From Desulfallas thermosapovorans DSM 6562 (GTDB lineage: Bacteria; Bacillota; Desulfotomaculia; Desulfotomaculales; Desulfallaceae), in assembly GCF_008124625.1 (NCBI RefSeq), contig NZ_VNHM01000010.1, positions 1 to 64,000 on the forward strand: a DNA stretch of 64,000 nucleotides, read 5' to 3'. The translations under genes and the position numbers were made by a program. Positions 21,246-38,456 of this stretch are shown piece by piece; within the stretch, counting starts at the first letter, position 1, and each line of letters begins with the position of its first letter. Under the pieces are notes generated by a model. That model made no database searches. It saw nothing but the letters and a program-made list of their open reading frames with translations, and was not told the DNA's origin.

Positions 21246-22268
21246 GTGAGTGTAACCATATTAAGTGTGGAAACATCATGTGATGAAACTTCTTCGGCAG
21301 TGTTAGTGGATGGTATTAATATAAAATCCAATATCATATCCTCCCAGGTAGACGTACACCGCAAATTTGGCGGCGTGGTACCCGAGGTGGCCTCCCGTAA
21401 GCATCTGGAGCTTATTAACCACGTTATTCAAGAAGCTCTGGATGAAGCCGGTATAGGATTTAACAATCTGGATGCCGTGGCCGTCACCTACGGGCCCGGA
21501 TTGGTTGGCGCATTGCTGGTGGGCGTTGCCGCCGCCAAAGCCATTGCCTTTGGATTAGACATACCCCTTATCGGCGTTAACCACCTGGAGGGCCACGTAA
21601 GCGCCAATTTTTTAGTAGAACCTCAACCGGAGTTTCCTGTAATCTGCCTGGTGGTGTCCGGTGGGCACACGGATTTGGTGCTAATTTCCGGCTATGGTCG
21701 TTACGAACTTTTAGGCGCCACCCGGGATGACGCAGCAGGTGAGGCATTTGACAAAGTAGCCCGTGTATTGGGCCTGGGTTATCCGGGTGGACCGCTAATT
21801 GACAATATGGCATTATCCGGCAATGATATGGCCATAGATCTGCCCCGTGCTTACCTGGCAGCAGATAGCCTTGATTTCAGCTTTAGCGGGCTTAAAACAG
21901 CAGTTATCAACTACCTGCACAGAGCTAATCAGAAAGGAGTGCCGGTAAATAAAGCGGATGTGGCGGCAAGTTTTCAACGGGCAGCGGTTGATGTATTGGT
22001 TGACAAAACACTACTGGCAGCCCAAAAGTGCCGTACAAAAACAATAATGCTGGCGGGTGGGGTGGCAGCCAACCGGTTGTTGAGACAAGAAATTACCTAC
22101 CGGGCTTCCCGGGAAGGCAGGCGAGTGATTTATCCACCTCCTGTTCTATGTACTGACAACGCCGCCATGATTGGCTGTGCAGCCTACTACAAATATTTGC
22201 AAAACGATTTCGCTCCCCTGACATTAAACGCAATGCCAAATTTATCTCTGGGTGAAGATCGCTACTAA
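21246..22268 (+). CDS. tsaD: tRNA N6-adenosine threonylcarbamoyltransferase TsaD
   Basis: 340 residues of the Kae1/TsaD/YgjD (Gcp) family, which transfers threonylcarbamoyl to A37 of ANN-decoding tRNAs with TsaB and TsaE. Motifs: SVETSCDETS at the N-terminus, the metal site HLEGH, VVSGGHTDLV, and AGGVAANRLLR. Start GTG 21246 has AAGGAGAAA upstream. TsaB/TsaE partners are not in this window. A DnaA-box cluster begins 20 bases after the stop. Confidence 0.96.
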   Translation: MSVTILSVETSCDETSSAVLVDGINIKSNIISSQVDVHRKFGGVVPEVASRKHLELINHVIQEALDEAGIGFNNLDAVAVTYGPGLVGALLVGVAAAKAIAFGLDIPLIGVNHLEGHVSANFLVEPQPEFPVICLVVSGGHTDLVLISGYGRYELLGATRDDAAGEAFDKVARVLGLGYPGGPLIDNMALSGNDMAIDLPRAYLAADSLDFSFSGLKTAVINYLHRANQKGVPVNKADVAASFQRAAVDVLVDKTLLAAQKCRTKTIMLAGGVAANRLLRQEITYRASREGRRVIYPPPVLCTDNAAMIGCAAYYKYLQNDFAPLTLNAMPNLSLGEDRY

Positions 22269-22288
22269 ACCAGGCCGCTCACAGCAAT

Positions 22289-22526
22289 CTATCCACATAA
22301 TAATCCACAGGATGGCAAACGGTGCTGTGGGTAAAAACTTTAACAACCTTTATTGTTAAACCACCAACCCTTGTGGTCCAAGTTTATTTGTATATCCGGA
22401 TTTACTTATTTTGCTGATTAATAGCATTTGTTTAAACAGCAACTTGTACTTATCCCTGTGGATAATGTGGATAAGTCTGTTAATAACTTGTTAGCAAGGA
22501 GTTTAGCCTGTGGGTTAAAATCCACA
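22289..22526. other. DnaA-box cluster downstream of tsaD
   Basis: Against the consensus TTATCCACA I count two perfect, directly abutting boxes on the minus strand (22457-22465 and 22466-22474), and one-mismatch boxes at 22289-22297 (+), 22301-22309 (+) and 22326-22334 (-). Weaker ones lie at 22509-22517 (-) and 22518-22526 (+). No gene lies in 22269-22757. There is no dnaA or dnaN nearby, so this is more likely a DnaA-binding control locus than the origin itself. Confidence 0.7.
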
Positions 22527-22757
22527 AATGCCATTAGAGGATAATAGCTATATACATTGCATATCTTTCCCAAAGCTTAGGGTATAGGTAGATATTTGCG
22601 GGTTAGACTTTTATTGAACAATAAGTTGTGCTATTCTTTTTATAATCACATGGCGAAAGTAACAAAAGAGTTGTACTGGTAAAAAGAGTATGAGAACATG
22701 CCACGGGAGAAATTTGTGGCCTCGCATTGAAATAAGTTATAAGAGGGGGCAAGTTAA

Positions 22758-23189
22758 ATGAAGGTAAAACAAATATCCGTCTTTTTAGAGAACAAGCACG
22801 GGCGCCTGGCCGAGGTAACCCGGATATTGGGAACTAACAACATTAACATCAGGGCACTATCAATCGCCGACACCACTGATTTCGGCATACTGCGATTAAT
22901 TGTCAGCTATCCAGATCAGGCATACCGGGTACTGAAGGAGTCCGGCTTCACCGTCAGCACCACTGATGTCATTGCAGTGGAAGTGAAGGATGAACCCGGC
23001 GGCCTGGCAGGAGTACTGGAAATACTACAGCAGGTAAATATCAATATCGAATACCTGTATGCATTTATACAGAAAGCCACCAACGCCGCCCTGGTGGTAT
23101 TTCGTGTGGAGCAACTGGACGAGGCCATCACAGTACTGCAAAAAAACAACATCAGCATACTATCCGGTAATCAGGTGTATAAGTTATAA
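22758..23189 (+). CDS. Tandem ACT-domain protein
   Basis: 143 residues made of two ACT domains: residues 1-70 ([19 protein letters not shown]) and 71-143 ([18 protein letters not shown]). ACT domains bind small ligands, usually amino acids. Stand-alone tandem ACT proteins are often found next to phenylacetate-CoA ligase-type genes in anaerobes, but none is adjacent here. The ribosome site AAGAGGGGG precedes ATG 22758. A small hairpin GCCAC/GTGGC lies in the leader near 22699-22719. Confidence 0.85.
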
Positions 23190-26584: not shown

Positions 26585-26635
26585 TTATTTAATTGGCTAA
26601 TGGCCCACTTTTTCAAGAAAAGGAGGGAAAAGAGA

Positions 26636-27556
26636 ATGTCCTATGTATCCCTGACCATAGATGGTATTAATATAAAAGTACCTAAAGGAACCACTGTTTT
26701 GGACGCAGCCCGGCAAGCAGGTATATTTATACCCACGCTGTGCCATGACCCTGCCATACCACGCTTCGGTGCTTGCCGCATCTGTGTGGTGGAGATTCCC
26801 GGTATGCGCAACCTGCCCGCCTCCTGCGTCACTGAATGCACCGAGGGCATGCAGGTGTTTACCGAGTCGCCGGCAGTAATAGAAGCCCGTCAAACCATAT
26901 TGGAACTGCTGCTGGCCAACCACCCCCAGGACTGTCTGACCTGCGAACGCAACGGCGACTGCCGGCTGCAGGATTATGCATTTCGCTACGGTGTTAAGGA
27001 ATCCGGCTTTACAGGTGAGCGTAAAAACTACCCGCTGGATGACTCTAACCCGTATATCATCAGGGATGCCAATAAATGCATATTGTGCGGGCGGTGCGTG
27101 CGCACCTGCAACGCCATCCCCGAGCGTAGCGTTATTGATTTCGGATACCGGGGTTTTGGTACCAAAATTGTTACCGCCATGGACACCCCGTTGGGCGAAT
27201 CCGACTGTGTGTACTGCGGCCGTTGCGTAACAGTATGCCCGGTGGGCGCCCTTACCTGGAAACCCATGGCCGGCAAAGGCCGTACCTGGGAAATGGCCCG
27301 GCAACAGGTTACCTGCACCTTTTGCGACAGCGGCTGCACCTTCGAAGTACTCAGCAAAAACGGTCAAAACATCGGTGTAGTACCCAAGGAACCAGGCAGC
27401 GGACGCCCATTGTGTTTAAAAGGACGGCTGGGCCTTGAACTGAAATACCTGGACAATCCACCCGCGCCGCAGCTTAAAAAAGGCGACGAGTTCGTGGAAG
27501 TATCCTGGGCCGAGGCTCTGGGACTGGAAGATATATTAAACAAACTGTCTAAATGA
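26636..27556 (+). CDS. Short NuoG-like iron-sulfur protein, paralogue of the FdhA N-terminus
   Basis: 306 residues from ATG 26636 (AAAAGGAGGG upstream). It matches the first third of the following FdhA closely: [2Fe-2S] domain (CHDPAIPRFGACRIC), CERNGDC cluster, and ferredoxin motifs CILCGRCVRTC and CVYCGRCVTVCP. It then keeps only the first molybdopterin-domain cluster (CTFCDSGCTFEV) and ends after VEVSWAEALGL. It is therefore a truncated duplicate lacking the catalytic domain. An electron-relay role is inferred. The frame is intact and well spaced in the operon, so it is unlikely to be a pseudogene. Confidence 0.88.
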   Translation: MSYVSLTIDGINIKVPKGTTVLDAARQAGIFIPTLCHDPAIPRFGACRICVVEIPGMRNLPASCVTECTEGMQVFTESPAVIEARQTILELLLANHPQDCLTCERNGDCRLQDYAFRYGVKESGFTGERKNYPLDDSNPYIIRDANKCILCGRCVRTCNAIPERSVIDFGYRGFGTKIVTAMDTPLGESDCVYCGRCVTVCPVGALTWKPMAGKGRTWEMARQQVTCTFCDSGCTFEVLSKNGQNIGVVPKEPGSGRPLCLKGRLGLELKYLDNPPAPQLKKGDEFVEVSWAEALGLEDILNKLSK

Positions 27557-27581
27557 TATCAAACAGAGGAAGGAGGGATAC

Positions 27582-30275
27582 TTGGCAGTGGAACAAGTTT
27601 CATTAACCATTAACGGTATATCCGTAACCGTCCCCAAAGGGACTACCGTGCTTGAGGCCGCCCAAAAGGCCGGGGTGTTTATCCCTACCTTTTGCCACGA
27701 CCCGGAGCTAACCAAATTCGGAGCCTGCCGCATGTGCGTGGTTGAAATACCGGGTATGCGCAACCTGCCCGCTTCATGCGTCACTGAAGCCACCGATGGC
27801 ATGATGGTGCACACCGATTCACCGGCGGTGCAGGAAGCAAGGAAAACCATACTGGAATTAATGCTGGCCAATCACCCCATGGACTGTCTCACCTGCGGCA
27901 AAAACGGGGATTGCCGTCTCCAAGATTATGCTTATATGTACGGAGTGAAAACAGAGCCATTCCAAGGTGAAAAGCATGGCTATACACTGGAAAACGATAA
28001 TCCTTTCATTATAAGGGATATGAATAAGTGTATACTGTGCGGCAAATGCGTACGCGCCTGTGCCGAAATTCAGGGTAAGAGCATCGTGGACTTTGCTTAC
28101 CGAGGCTTTGATGCTAAAATAACCCCGGCCATGGACGTACCCCTATCAGCATCCGAATGCGTATTCTGCGGCAACTGCGTGGCAGTATGTCCGGTAGGCG
28201 CACTTCAGGAGAAAGGACTACGGTCTGTAGCCCGCACCTGGGAAGTACAGAAAGTCAAAACCACCTGCCCCTATTGTGGAACAGGATGCAGCTTCGAGTT
28301 GAACGTTAAGGATAACAAGGTGGTGGGAGTTACCTCCTGCGACGGCGATGTCAACGGCCGGGCGTTGTGTGTAAAAGGTCGTTTCGGTTATGGTTTTATT
28401 CATCACCCTGATCGCCTGACCACGCCGCTCATTAAAAAGGACGGCGTATTCGTGGAAGCTTCCTGGGATGAAGCCATTGGCCTGGTGGCCGAAAAACTGG
28501 GACAAATCAAAGAACAGCACGGTGGTGATGCACTGGCAGTGCTCAGTTCCGCCCGGTGCACCAATGAGGAAAACTACCTGCTTCAGAAATTCACCCGCGC
28601 GGTGCTCGGTACTAACAATATTGACCACTGCGCCCGCCTCTGACACGCACCCACCGTCGCCGGTCTGGCGGCAGCATTTGGAAGCGGGGCGATGACCAAC
28701 AGTATTGATGAAATAGCCGGAGCTGATTTTATTTTGGCCATCGGTACCAACACCACGGAATCACACCCCATCATCAGTCTTAAGGCTAAAAAGGCCAGGC
28801 GCAGCGGTGCCACCCTGGTGGTGGTGGACCCGCGCCGCACCGAGATGGCGGAATTGGCCAACGTGCACATGCAGCTCAAGTCCGGTTCCGACATAGCACT
28901 GCTCAATGCCATGGCCAATGTCATCATTGAAGAGGAAATTTGGAATAAGGATTTCGTGGCTAATCGCACCGAAGATTTCGAAGCCCTTAAAGCAACTGTG
29001 GCAAAGTATACACCGGAATATGCCGAAAAAATCACAGGTATTAACGCCAAAACCATAAGGGAAGTAGCCCGGGGCTATGCCCAAGCGAAAAATGCCACCA
29101 TACTTTACACTATGGGTATCACCCAGCACATTTGCGGCACCCACAACGTATTTGCCGTGGCCAACCTGGCCATGTTGTGCGGGCATATTGGTAAAGAAAG
29201 CAGCGGTGTTAACCCGCTCAGGGGCCAAAACAACGTGCAGGGAGCATGTGACATGGGCGCGCTGCCCAACGTATATACGGGCTACCAGGCGGTGACCGTG
29301 GACGACAACCGGGCAAAATTCGCTAAAGCTTGGAACGTAGCGGAATTGCCCGCCCAGCCGGGCTTGACCGTGGGGGATATGCTGGATAAAGCCGGAACAG
29401 GTGAAGTAAAGGGTATGTATATCATGGGCGAAAATCCCGTACTTTCCGATCCCGACAGTAACCACGTAGTTCATGCCCTCAAAAAACTGGACTTTTTGGT
29501 GGTGCAGGACATCTTCCTCACCGAAACGGCTGCTCTGGCCGATGTGGTACTGCCCGCAGCCAGCTTTGCAGAAAAGGATGGCACCTTCAGCAACACTGAA
29601 CGCCGGGTACAGCGGGTACGAAAGGCCATTGACCCGGTGGGCAACGCCCGGGCGGACTGGCAGATTATCTGTGCGGTATCCACAGCCATGGGCTATCCCA
29701 TGCATTACGCCAGTACTGCGGATATATTTGATGAAATAGCTTCCCTGACCCCGTCCTATGCGGGTATATCTTACAGCCGGTTGGAGCAGGGCGGCATTCA
29801 GTGGCCTTGTCCCAACGCAGATCACCCAGGTACAACCTACCTGCACAAGGATACGTTTTCCCGCGGTTTAGGCAAATTCAACCCGGTGGAATATATCCCT
29901 CCGGCGGAAATTCCCGATACTGAATATCCGTTGGTGCTGAGCACCGGGCGGCGGCATTTCCACTATCACACCGGCACCATGACTCAACGCACCGGTGCAC
30001 TGGAATTACACTATGGCACCGAATACTTGGAGATTAGCCAAGCGGATGCTGCTACGTTGGGTGTAGCCGATGGAGACAATGTGCGGGTATTATCCCGCCG
30101 CGGCCAGGTGGAAGTAATGGCCCGAGTTACCGATGTGGTACCCAAAGGACTGGTATTTACTTCGTTCCATTTCCCGGCAGTGGCCATTAACAAACTGACC
30201 AACCCGGCCAAGGATCCGGTGGCTAAAATACCGGAACTGAAGGTATGCGCAGTAAAGGTGGAAAAAGCCTGCTGA
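27582..30275 (+). CDS. fdhA: Selenocysteine formate dehydrogenase catalytic subunit
   Basis: An 897-residue protein if TGA 28641-28643 is read as selenocysteine (U354). The upstream part ends DHCARL and the next codons read HAPTVAGLAAAFG, the conserved sequence around the active-site Sec of formate dehydrogenases. Domains: [2Fe-2S] (CHDPELTKFGACRMC), two ferredoxin clusters, CPYCGTGCSFEL near 228, molybdopterin domain, and C-terminal cofactor-binding domain (VLSTGRRHFHYHTGT). It oxidises formate or reduces CO2 at Mo or W. TTG 27582 follows GGAAGGAGGG. Automated callers would split it into two genes at 28643 and 28692. Confidence 0.95.
28641..28670 (+). promoter_or_regulatory. SECIS element with Sec UGA codon
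   Basis: UGA is followed 18 bases later by loop GGUCU (28662-28666) on stem CGCC/GGCG (28658-28661 and 28667-28670), with outer pairing possible. The same loop and spacing occur in E. coli fdhF as I recall it. It recruits SelB with Sec-tRNA. Confidence 0.88.
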
Positions 30276-36428: not shown

Positions 36429-38456
36429 GTGTCCGAAAAGGTAAATGGTGGCGGAGCTCACTACGCAGTACACTGGCAAGAGGAACAATATGTTCATCCA
36501 CCGGCCAGTTTTATCGGTCAGGCCAATATGACTGATCCGGCAGTTTTTGAGCGGTTCAGTTTGGATAATTTCCCCGAATGCTTCAAAGAGTTTGCAGATT
36601 TGCTGGATTGGGACCAATACTGGCACACCACGCTGGACACCAGCGACGCCCCTTGCTGGAAATGGTTTGTGGGTGGTAAGCTAAACGCCAGTTATAATTG
36701 TGTGGATAGACATCTGGCCAAATATAAAAACAAAACGGCCATTCACTATGTGCCGGAACCCGAGGATGAACCCATTATCCACATGACCTACCAGGAACTC
36801 TATCGCAGAGTTAATGAAACTGCTGCTGTATTAAGGGACTTTTGTGGCCTGAAAGCGGGTGACCGTGTTACTCTACAACTGCCCATGACTCCGGAACTGC
36901 CCATTACCATGCTGGCCTGCGCCCGTTTGGGGGTCATTCATTCCCAGGTGTTTGCAGGTTTCAGCGGCCAGGCCTGCGGCGAAAGAATCTGGGATTCCGG
37001 AAGTAATATACTAATTACTATGGACGCCTATTATCGCAATGGTAAACTGCTTGATCACAAGGCTGTCGGTGACATAGCAGTTGAAGTGGCCAAAAAAGAA
37101 GGCCAACAAGTTGACAAAGTACTTATCTGGCAGCGTTACCCCGGCAAATATTCTTCCAATGCACCTCTGATTGAGGGCCGGGATTACTTTATGAACGACC
37201 TGCTGAAACAGTATGCCAGAACCATAGTGGAACCGGTTTCCATGCCGGCCGAAGGTATTCTATTTCTCATGTATACCAGTGGTTCAACAGGACGTCCCAA
37301 AGGAGTACAACACAGCATCGGCGGTTACCTGTCATATGTAGCCTGGATGTCCAAGGTTATCCAGGATATTCACCCTGAAGATGTATACTGGTGCATGGCG
37401 GACATCGGATGGATTACGGGGCACTCCTTTATAGTCTACGGGCCTCTTGCTATAGCTGCCAGTACCGTCATATATGAAGGGCTTCCCACATACCCGGATG
37501 CCGGAAGGGTATGGAGAATTGCCGAAGAACTTGGCGTCAATATATTCCATACATCACCTACGGCTATCCGCGGCTTCAGAAAATCCGGACCGGATGAGCC
37601 CGCCAAATACAATTATAATTTTAAACACATGACCACCGTGGGTGAGCCCATTGAACCTGAAGTTTGGAAATGGTACTACAATGTAGTGGGCAAAGGCAAA
37701 GCCGTCGTTGTCGACACGTGGTGGCAAACTGAAACCGGTGGCTTTTTGTGCAGCACGGTACCAGGCATTAGCCCCATGAAACCAGGTAGTGCCGGACCGG
37801 GGGTACCTGGTATTCACCCGGTAATCCTTGACAATGAAGGCAATGAAATTCCGGCCGGAGCAGGCAAAGCGGGTAACATCTGCATAAGAAACCCCTGGCC
37901 GGGGCTGATGCAGACTATCTGGAAAGACCGGGATCGCTATGTATCTACTTATTACGGGAAGTACTGTAAAGATCCGAACAGCAAAGACTGGCGGGATTGG
38001 CCGTATATGGCGGGGGACGCCGCCGTGGTATCCGCCGACGGTTATGTCCGTATACTGGGCCGTGTGGACGACGTTATTAACGTAGCGGGACACCGGTTGG
38101 GTACTAAAGAGATCGAGTCCGCCGCACTTACGATTGAGGAAGTAGCCGAAGCGGCTGTTATCGCAGCCAAGGATGAAATCAAAGGTACTGTGCCCGATTT
38201 GTATGTATCATTAAAACCCGGGTGCCAAGCCAGCGATGAACTGGCCGTCAAGATTTCCAACGCCGTATCTACAGTGGTGGGTAAGATTGCCCGTCCACGC
38301 AACGTGCATATTGTACCGGATATGCCTAAAACCCGCTCCGGTAAAATTATGCGCCGAGTCCTGGCATCTATATCCAACAGGGGAGATGTGGGCGACGTCA
38401 CTTCCCTGGCCAACCCCGACGTAGTGGAGAAAATCCGTAAGCAGGTACAAGGCTGA
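36429..38456 (+). CDS. acsA: Acetyl-CoA synthetase (AMP-forming)
   Basis: 675 residues, full length for Acs. Phosphate loop LMYTSGSTGRPKGVQH near residue 281, WWQTETGG near 438, hinge GRVDDVINVAGHRLGT, and C-terminal PKTRSGKIMRR with the lysine that is both catalytic and the usual acetylation site. It makes acetyl-CoA from acetate and ATP. GTG 36429 follows AGGAGGT. The sirtuin at 19.5 kb could reactivate it (inference). A small variation, HTSPTAIRGF for the more common YTAPTAIR, is seen. Confidence 0.94.
   Translation: MSEKVNGGGAHYAVHWQEEQYVHPPASFIGQANMTDPAVFERFSLDNFPECFKEFADLLDWDQYWHTTLDTSDAPCWKWFVGGKLNASYNCVDRHLAKYKNKTAIHYVPEPEDEPIIHMTYQELYRRVNETAAVLRDFCGLKAGDRVTLQLPMTPELPITMLACARLGVIHSQVFAGFSGQACGERIWDSGSNILITMDAYYRNGKLLDHKAVGDIAVEVAKKEGQQVDKVLIWQRYPGKYSSNAPLIEGRDYFMNDLLKQYARTIVEPVSMPAEGILFLMYTSGSTGRPKGVQHSIGGYLSYVAWMSKVIQDIHPEDVYWCMADIGWITGHSFIVYGPLAIAASTVIYEGLPTYPDAGRVWRIAEELGVNIFHTSPTAIRGFRKSGPDEPAKYNYNFKHMTTVGEPIEPEVWKWYYNVVGKGKAVVVDTWWQTETGGFLCSTVPGISPMKPGSAGPGVPGIHPVILDNEGNEIPAGAGKAGNICIRNPWPGLMQTIWKDRDRYVSTYYGKYCKDPNSKDWRDWPYMAGDAAVVSADGYVRILGRVDDVINVAGHRLGTKEIESAALTIEEVAEAAVIAAKDEIKGTVPDLYVSLKPGCQASDELAVKISNAVSTVVGKIARPRNVHIVPDMPKTRSGKIMRRVLASISNRGDVGDVTSLANPDVVEKIRKQVQG

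Follow-up and report, generated by a model that had tools for sequence, protein, structure and literature searches.

The intergenic region directly downstream of tsaD (gcp) in Desulfallas thermosapovorans DSM 6562 contains a cluster of DnaA boxes that exceeds chance expectation, recurs at the same address in distantly related Bacillota, keeps a fixed orientation relative to tsaD and is phased on the DNA helix. Probably it is an ancient element in the control of chromosome replication. The reading that we favor, and consider reasonably likely, is that of a non-oriC cluster whose place is orthologous to that of the gcp/ydiF cluster of B. subtilis and which would sequester (ATP-)DnaA and thereby restrain initiation. 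That DnaA binds this site, that it does so preferentially in the ATP form and that initiation is affected is what we infer from B. subtilis. The matter bears on what keeps initiation in check in Bacillota, where Hda, SeqA, datA and DARS are lacking.

DnaA boxes in the tsaD downstream gap

The window, a 64,000-nucleotide stretch of contig NZ_VNHM01000010.1, encodes TsaD on the plus strand at 21246–22268 (TIGR03723 equivalog, 436 bits, above the cut-off). The 3' end of the gene is followed by 489 bp without a gene-like ORF (22269–22757) and then by a plus-strand gene at 22758–23189, called ACT-domain-like on the basis of weak ncbifam matches to ACT-type regulatory proteins; this gene is not kept as a neighbor in other genomes. 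A box search of the gap recovered five DnaA boxes that are perfect or deviate at a single position, namely the two perfect abutting boxes and three one-mismatch boxes that a previous sequence-only reading had reported. The one-mismatch boxes are CTATCCACA (22289–22297, plus strand), TAATCCACA (22301–22309, plus strand) and TTACCCACA (22326–22334, minus strand). Both perfect boxes, at 22457–22465 and 22466–22474, read TTATCCACA on the minus strand. Together with a third, degenerate minus-strand box, TTATTAACA (22478–22486, one mismatch from TTATNCACA), they form the triple-box module TTATTAACA-GAC-TTATCCACA-TTATCCACA at 22457–22486, which has no mismatches to the module consensus derived from 58 loci. 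Two weak boxes with two mismatches each follow: TAACCCACA (22509–22517, minus strand) and AAATCCACA (22518–22526, plus strand). Sigma-70 promoter and terminator scans of the gap gave no hits and an Rfam search of the tsaD locus (L059) gave no match, and we therefore dropped a promoter, a terminator or a known RNA as the content of the gap.

The cluster stands out from its own genome. Not one of 3000 dinucleotide-preserving shuffles of the gap contained two or more perfect boxes, or five or more boxes with at most one mismatch. Across the whole genome (2.96 Mb, 48 contigs), where the background was assessed by pattern counts, the perfect box TTATCCACA occurs 74 times against 19 occurrences of the reversed motif (about fourfold commoner), and only four pairs of perfect boxes lie within 300 bp of each other. 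The remaining close pairs include one at the dnaA promoter and another within a gene, its boxes 231 bp apart. Clusters were scored in 242-bp places over 462 kb of the genome's own sequence, comprising the window and 20 further stretches, three of which had been picked because they hold box pairs; a score above 6 was reached at two places only, the tsaD gap and the gap upstream of yqeK-rsfS. Box counting and cluster ranking of the kind that the sequence-only reading had proposed thus found no similar density at random sites, be it in the 462 kb, with permuted motifs or in the shuffles. The genome encodes DnaA (TIGR00362 match), with dnaA on another contig than the cluster, and the tsaD gap is accordingly a non-coding site, away from dnaA, with several DnaA boxes beyond chance: a cluster outside oriC.

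Two lesser observations concern boxes elsewhere in this genome. The next-highest score in the window falls within an acyl-CoA synthetase-like gene, where three boxes, one of them perfect, lie at 36560–36783. Perfect boxes are also found at similar offsets from the ends of four contigs (C7:63, C11:83, C18:83 and C34:119), which suggests a repeated, box-bearing element at assembly breaks.

Conservation at the tsaD address

In the window's order, 32 of 40 distinct loci have at least one perfect box no further than 700 bp from the tsaD stop codon, mostly in an abutting antisense pair. When 149 tsaD loci are pooled with 2.5 kb on either side, perfect boxes are nearly nil away from the region just 3' of the stop codon: their density is 4.6/kb at 0–100 bp and 4.1/kb at 100–200 bp past the stop, 1.3/kb in the third 100-bp bin, and approximately 0–0.3/kb beyond 300 bp and upstream. 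Permuted motifs at the same loci occur at approximately 0.01–0.05/kb. The orientation is strongly biased, with 133 of the 159 perfect boxes antisense to tsaD. The phylum sample and named loci from other classes likewise have clusters at tsaD, among them those of Bacillus, Amphibacillus, Planococcus, Lysinibacillus, Brevibacillus, Macrococcus, Kroppenstedtia, Saccharibacillus, Alkaliphilus, Sporomusa and Thermovorax; Bacilli, some Clostridia and Sporomusa are thus represented. When the class to which Bacillus sp. FJAT-49711 belongs was sampled separately, 17 of 29 readable loci had at least two TTATNCACA boxes within 900 bp. A B. subtilis TsaD sequence formed the first row of one search query as a probe only; the returned loci alone serve as evidence. 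The suggestion of the sequence-only reading that the position might be conserved in distant Firmicutes therefore proved real and stronger than guessed (149 loci; Bacilli, Clostridia and Sporomusa), and the contrary outcome, no conservation in relatives, does not hold in either the window's order or the phylum sample.

The distribution is uneven. No cluster was found at tsaD in the sampled Lachnospiraceae (0/16), Selenomonadaceae (0/3), Erysipelotrichaceae, one Streptococcus and non-Bacillota. Half of 192 Bacillota-wide loci have none, so the cluster is dispensable or has been replaced in those lineages. On a TsaD tree of the 192 loci its presence requires 29 changes, compared with at least 54 in 200 label shuffles; as the tree was built from TsaD itself with an uneven sample, this demonstrates retention rather than a dated origin.

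The genes on the far side of the cluster vary by lineage and include an ABC-F gene (convergent, in many Bacilli) and genes for an ACT protein, 5-formyl-THF cyclo-ligase, ispD, lgt, a radical SAM protein and others, the names being read from the sequences rather than from profile scans. The distance between tsaD and dnaA ranges from 0.09 to 0.45 of the genome, which rules out that the address is set by a constant separation from oriC. Since both downstream genes and oriC distance vary, the cluster tracks tsaD and not a regulated gene or a chromosome position. A strict tie to sporulation is ruled out as well: Spo0A was found in 133 of the 149 genomes, and two genomes without it (G162 and G171) still have box clusters at tsaD.

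Helical phasing of the boxes

Same-strand perfect TTATNCACA boxes lying 14–110 bp apart are phased at approximately 10.5–11 bp. The Rayleigh z is 42.7 for all loci (best period 11.0) and 41.9 for the Bacilli and named set (best period 10.75), values that are not to be read as probabilities because related loci are not independent. In a jitter control, in which each box was shifted by up to 5 bp, z reached at most 6.0, at 10.5 bp. Taken alone, the window's order and the phylum sample show weaker phasing (z of 16.6 at 11.0 bp and 3.9 at 10.5 bp). One address across Bacilli, Clostridia and Sporomusa, a fixed strand and helical phasing together argue that the tsaD cluster is under selection. Counting against the favored reading, one review gives the B. 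subtilis clusters no significant role (PMC5295017).

A 30-bp triple-box module with a second address

Aligning 58 loci on the box pair gave the antisense consensus GTTAT(T/C)AACA-GAC-TTATCCACA-TTATCCACA-G. The core is a 30-bp triple, TTATTAACA-NNN-TTATCCACA-TTATCCACA, which is always antisense to tsaD and has an invariant geometry, with spacings of 12 and 9. The deviating A of the degenerate first box is itself conserved, in 44 of the 58 loci. Conservation drops to background on either flank of the three boxes, and the information content of the 58 loci gives no sign of an unwinding region or of another factor's site beside them.

With up to three mismatches allowed, the module is present in 38 of 41 genomes of the window's order, while the reversed pattern has no occurrence in the 41. 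The rule (32/41) is a single copy at tsaD plus a single one at another place, and six genomes have the other copy only. The non-tsaD copies have an address of their own: 36 of 38 have comFC and/or csp/hpf as neighbors, and most are flanked by the two. In D. thermosapovorans, which has two copies in all, the second is at C11:36739–36768 (L321:2740–2769), between a ComF-family gene and csp-hpf. The phylum sample has the module in 74 of 149 genomes and at tsaD in 40 of the 149, in every case antisense, with none for the reversed control. The pattern was derived from tsaD loci, which accounts in part for its presence there; neither the comFC address nor the count of two copies entered into its derivation. 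No copy of the module turned up at dnaA in any genome of the order. In some genomes of the phylum sample (loci L294, L295, L296, L418 and L430) the second module lies not at comFC/hpf but upstream of an amino-acid transporter-like gene, and several of the second modules beside a transporter-like gene also adjoin fliS-type flagellar genes.

A full-text literature search for DnaA boxes together with gcp/ydiF, tsaD, comFC and hpf returned PMC4447404 alone for gcp and nothing pertinent for the other addresses; a description of the comFC-csp/hpf address was thus not found in the literature searched. The search covered few subscription papers, and an earlier description of the conservation may exist.

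Proposed function and alternative explanations

The sequence-only reading had pointed to a B. subtilis DnaA-box cluster near gcp, and the literature bears this out. The gcp-ydiF gap is region 4 of the regions bound by DnaA in vitro; it has 10 sites, is among the strongest DnaA-binding regions and binds 16-fold more with ATP-DnaA than with ADP-DnaA at 55 nM (PMC4447404). It is one of the B. subtilis clusters outside oriC according to Okumura 2012, as cited in PMC13220808. The restraint of initiation that it had ascribed to these clusters is also documented, as deletion of all six non-oriC clusters leads to early initiation (PMC13220808, PMC5295017). The cluster described here resembles that of B. 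subtilis in lying directly 3' of tsaD/gcp, the address given in PMC4447404, and in comprising several DnaA boxes in non-coding DNA; it differs in its neighbor, the ACT gene instead of the convergent ydiF, the B. subtilis cluster being compared by description. Other Bacilli have the same antisense arrangement and spacings as the window's cluster, and the exact triple module, strongest in the window's order, is weaker there.

We propose that same-orientation boxes, all facing one side of the helix, seed the cooperative assembly of DnaA, with the 30-bp triple, a conserved degenerate box followed by two perfect abutting ones, as the core. By analogy with E. coli and B. subtilis, the degenerate first box would fit a site that (ATP-)DnaA occupies only when it binds cooperatively. 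Such an assembly would hold DnaA, probably mostly in its ATP form, leaving less for oriC and so restraining initiation. Counting against a sink, tsaD is near the terminus in both of the complete genomes from the window's genus, a position at which a titration site would have a low dosage. The B. subtilis regions are too few to define what makes a site favor ATP-DnaA (PMC4447404); the loci gathered here, numerous natural variants of a single site, offer material for this question.

We regard it as unlikely that the boxes are a DnaA-dependent transcription site, controlling either tsaD, by roadblock or antisense transcript, or the downstream gene. At certain clusters, sda among them, B. subtilis DnaA does act as a transcription factor (PMC4447404), the orientation toward tsaD is fixed, and the second address is upstream of csp/hpf. 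However, the downstream genes vary by lineage and are convergent in many Bacilli, the gap has no sigma-70-like promoter by our scan, and the boxes lie past the stop codon rather than at the tsaD promoter.

Rather improbable, too, is a DARS- or datA-like element that alters the nucleotide state of DnaA instead of merely holding it, the triple setting the geometry of the protomers. E. coli datA, DARS1 and DARS2 are likewise intergenic groups of DnaA boxes outside oriC at fixed gene addresses, and DARS is also built on a three-box core. The invariant spacings with a conserved non-consensus first box, and the fact that most genomes of the window's order have only two copies, would agree with such an element. 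Against it, conservation ends at the boxes, with no sign of a conserved IHF/Fis-type flank in the 58-locus alignment, and B. subtilis has neither datA nor DARS, nor is it known to have a regulator of the nucleotide state (PMC13220808). The cluster also differs from the E. coli elements in its neighbors, and no nucleotide-switch partner is known in Bacillota.

A broader form of the sequestration that we favor can be put forward tentatively, and we hold it to be possible but doubtful. Bacillota may have two ancient elements for DnaA assembly, locked to their addresses 3' of tsaD and between comFC and csp/hpf. The two would share one 30-bp module, of which most genomes in one order have just two copies per chromosome, and would work as a pair, as a DnaA sink or switch that times initiation, a Gram-positive counterpart of datA/DARS. 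The two addresses make a concrete pair of candidate elements.

That the boxes are a vertical relic or a chance pile-up without function is very improbable. The cluster is missing from many lineages, as such boxes might be, but the shuffles, permuted motifs, fixed orientation, phasing and nucleotide-level conservation all speak against it, as does the specificity control, the second high-scoring cluster of the genome. This cluster comprises six boxes at L062:10180–10338 (contig C12), upstream of yqeK-rsfS and downstream of a chemotaxis-receptor gene, partly with the same 9/12 spacing. The B. subtilis yqeG/sda cluster had prompted the idea of a conserved yqeK-upstream cluster, which was ruled out: among 24 genomes with a full yqeK, only D. 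thermosapovorans has it. Its absence from the 23 other relatives indicates that a cluster does not persist by inheritance alone.

The oriC of Bacillota (rpmH-dnaA-dnaN) likewise contains DnaA boxes, which flank dnaA on both sides. A second or relic replication origin at tsaD is nevertheless scarcely credible and was dropped, since the boxes, although dense, in one orientation and with more perfect copies than the dnaA-dnaN gap of the same genome, are neither next to dnaA nor at a strong GC-skew switch, have only background information content beside them in the 58 loci where an AT-rich unwinding region or period-3 DnaA-trio would lie, and coexist with a dnaA locus that has boxes of its own.

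Two further features were noted in passing. Downstream of rsfS on contig C12, a T-box leader (RF00230) with an overlapping tRNA match lies on the minus strand at L062:8454–8745. In the window, two adjacent and similar iron-sulfur genes at 26600–28643 are probably a tandem duplication of hydrogenase or dehydrogenase subunits.
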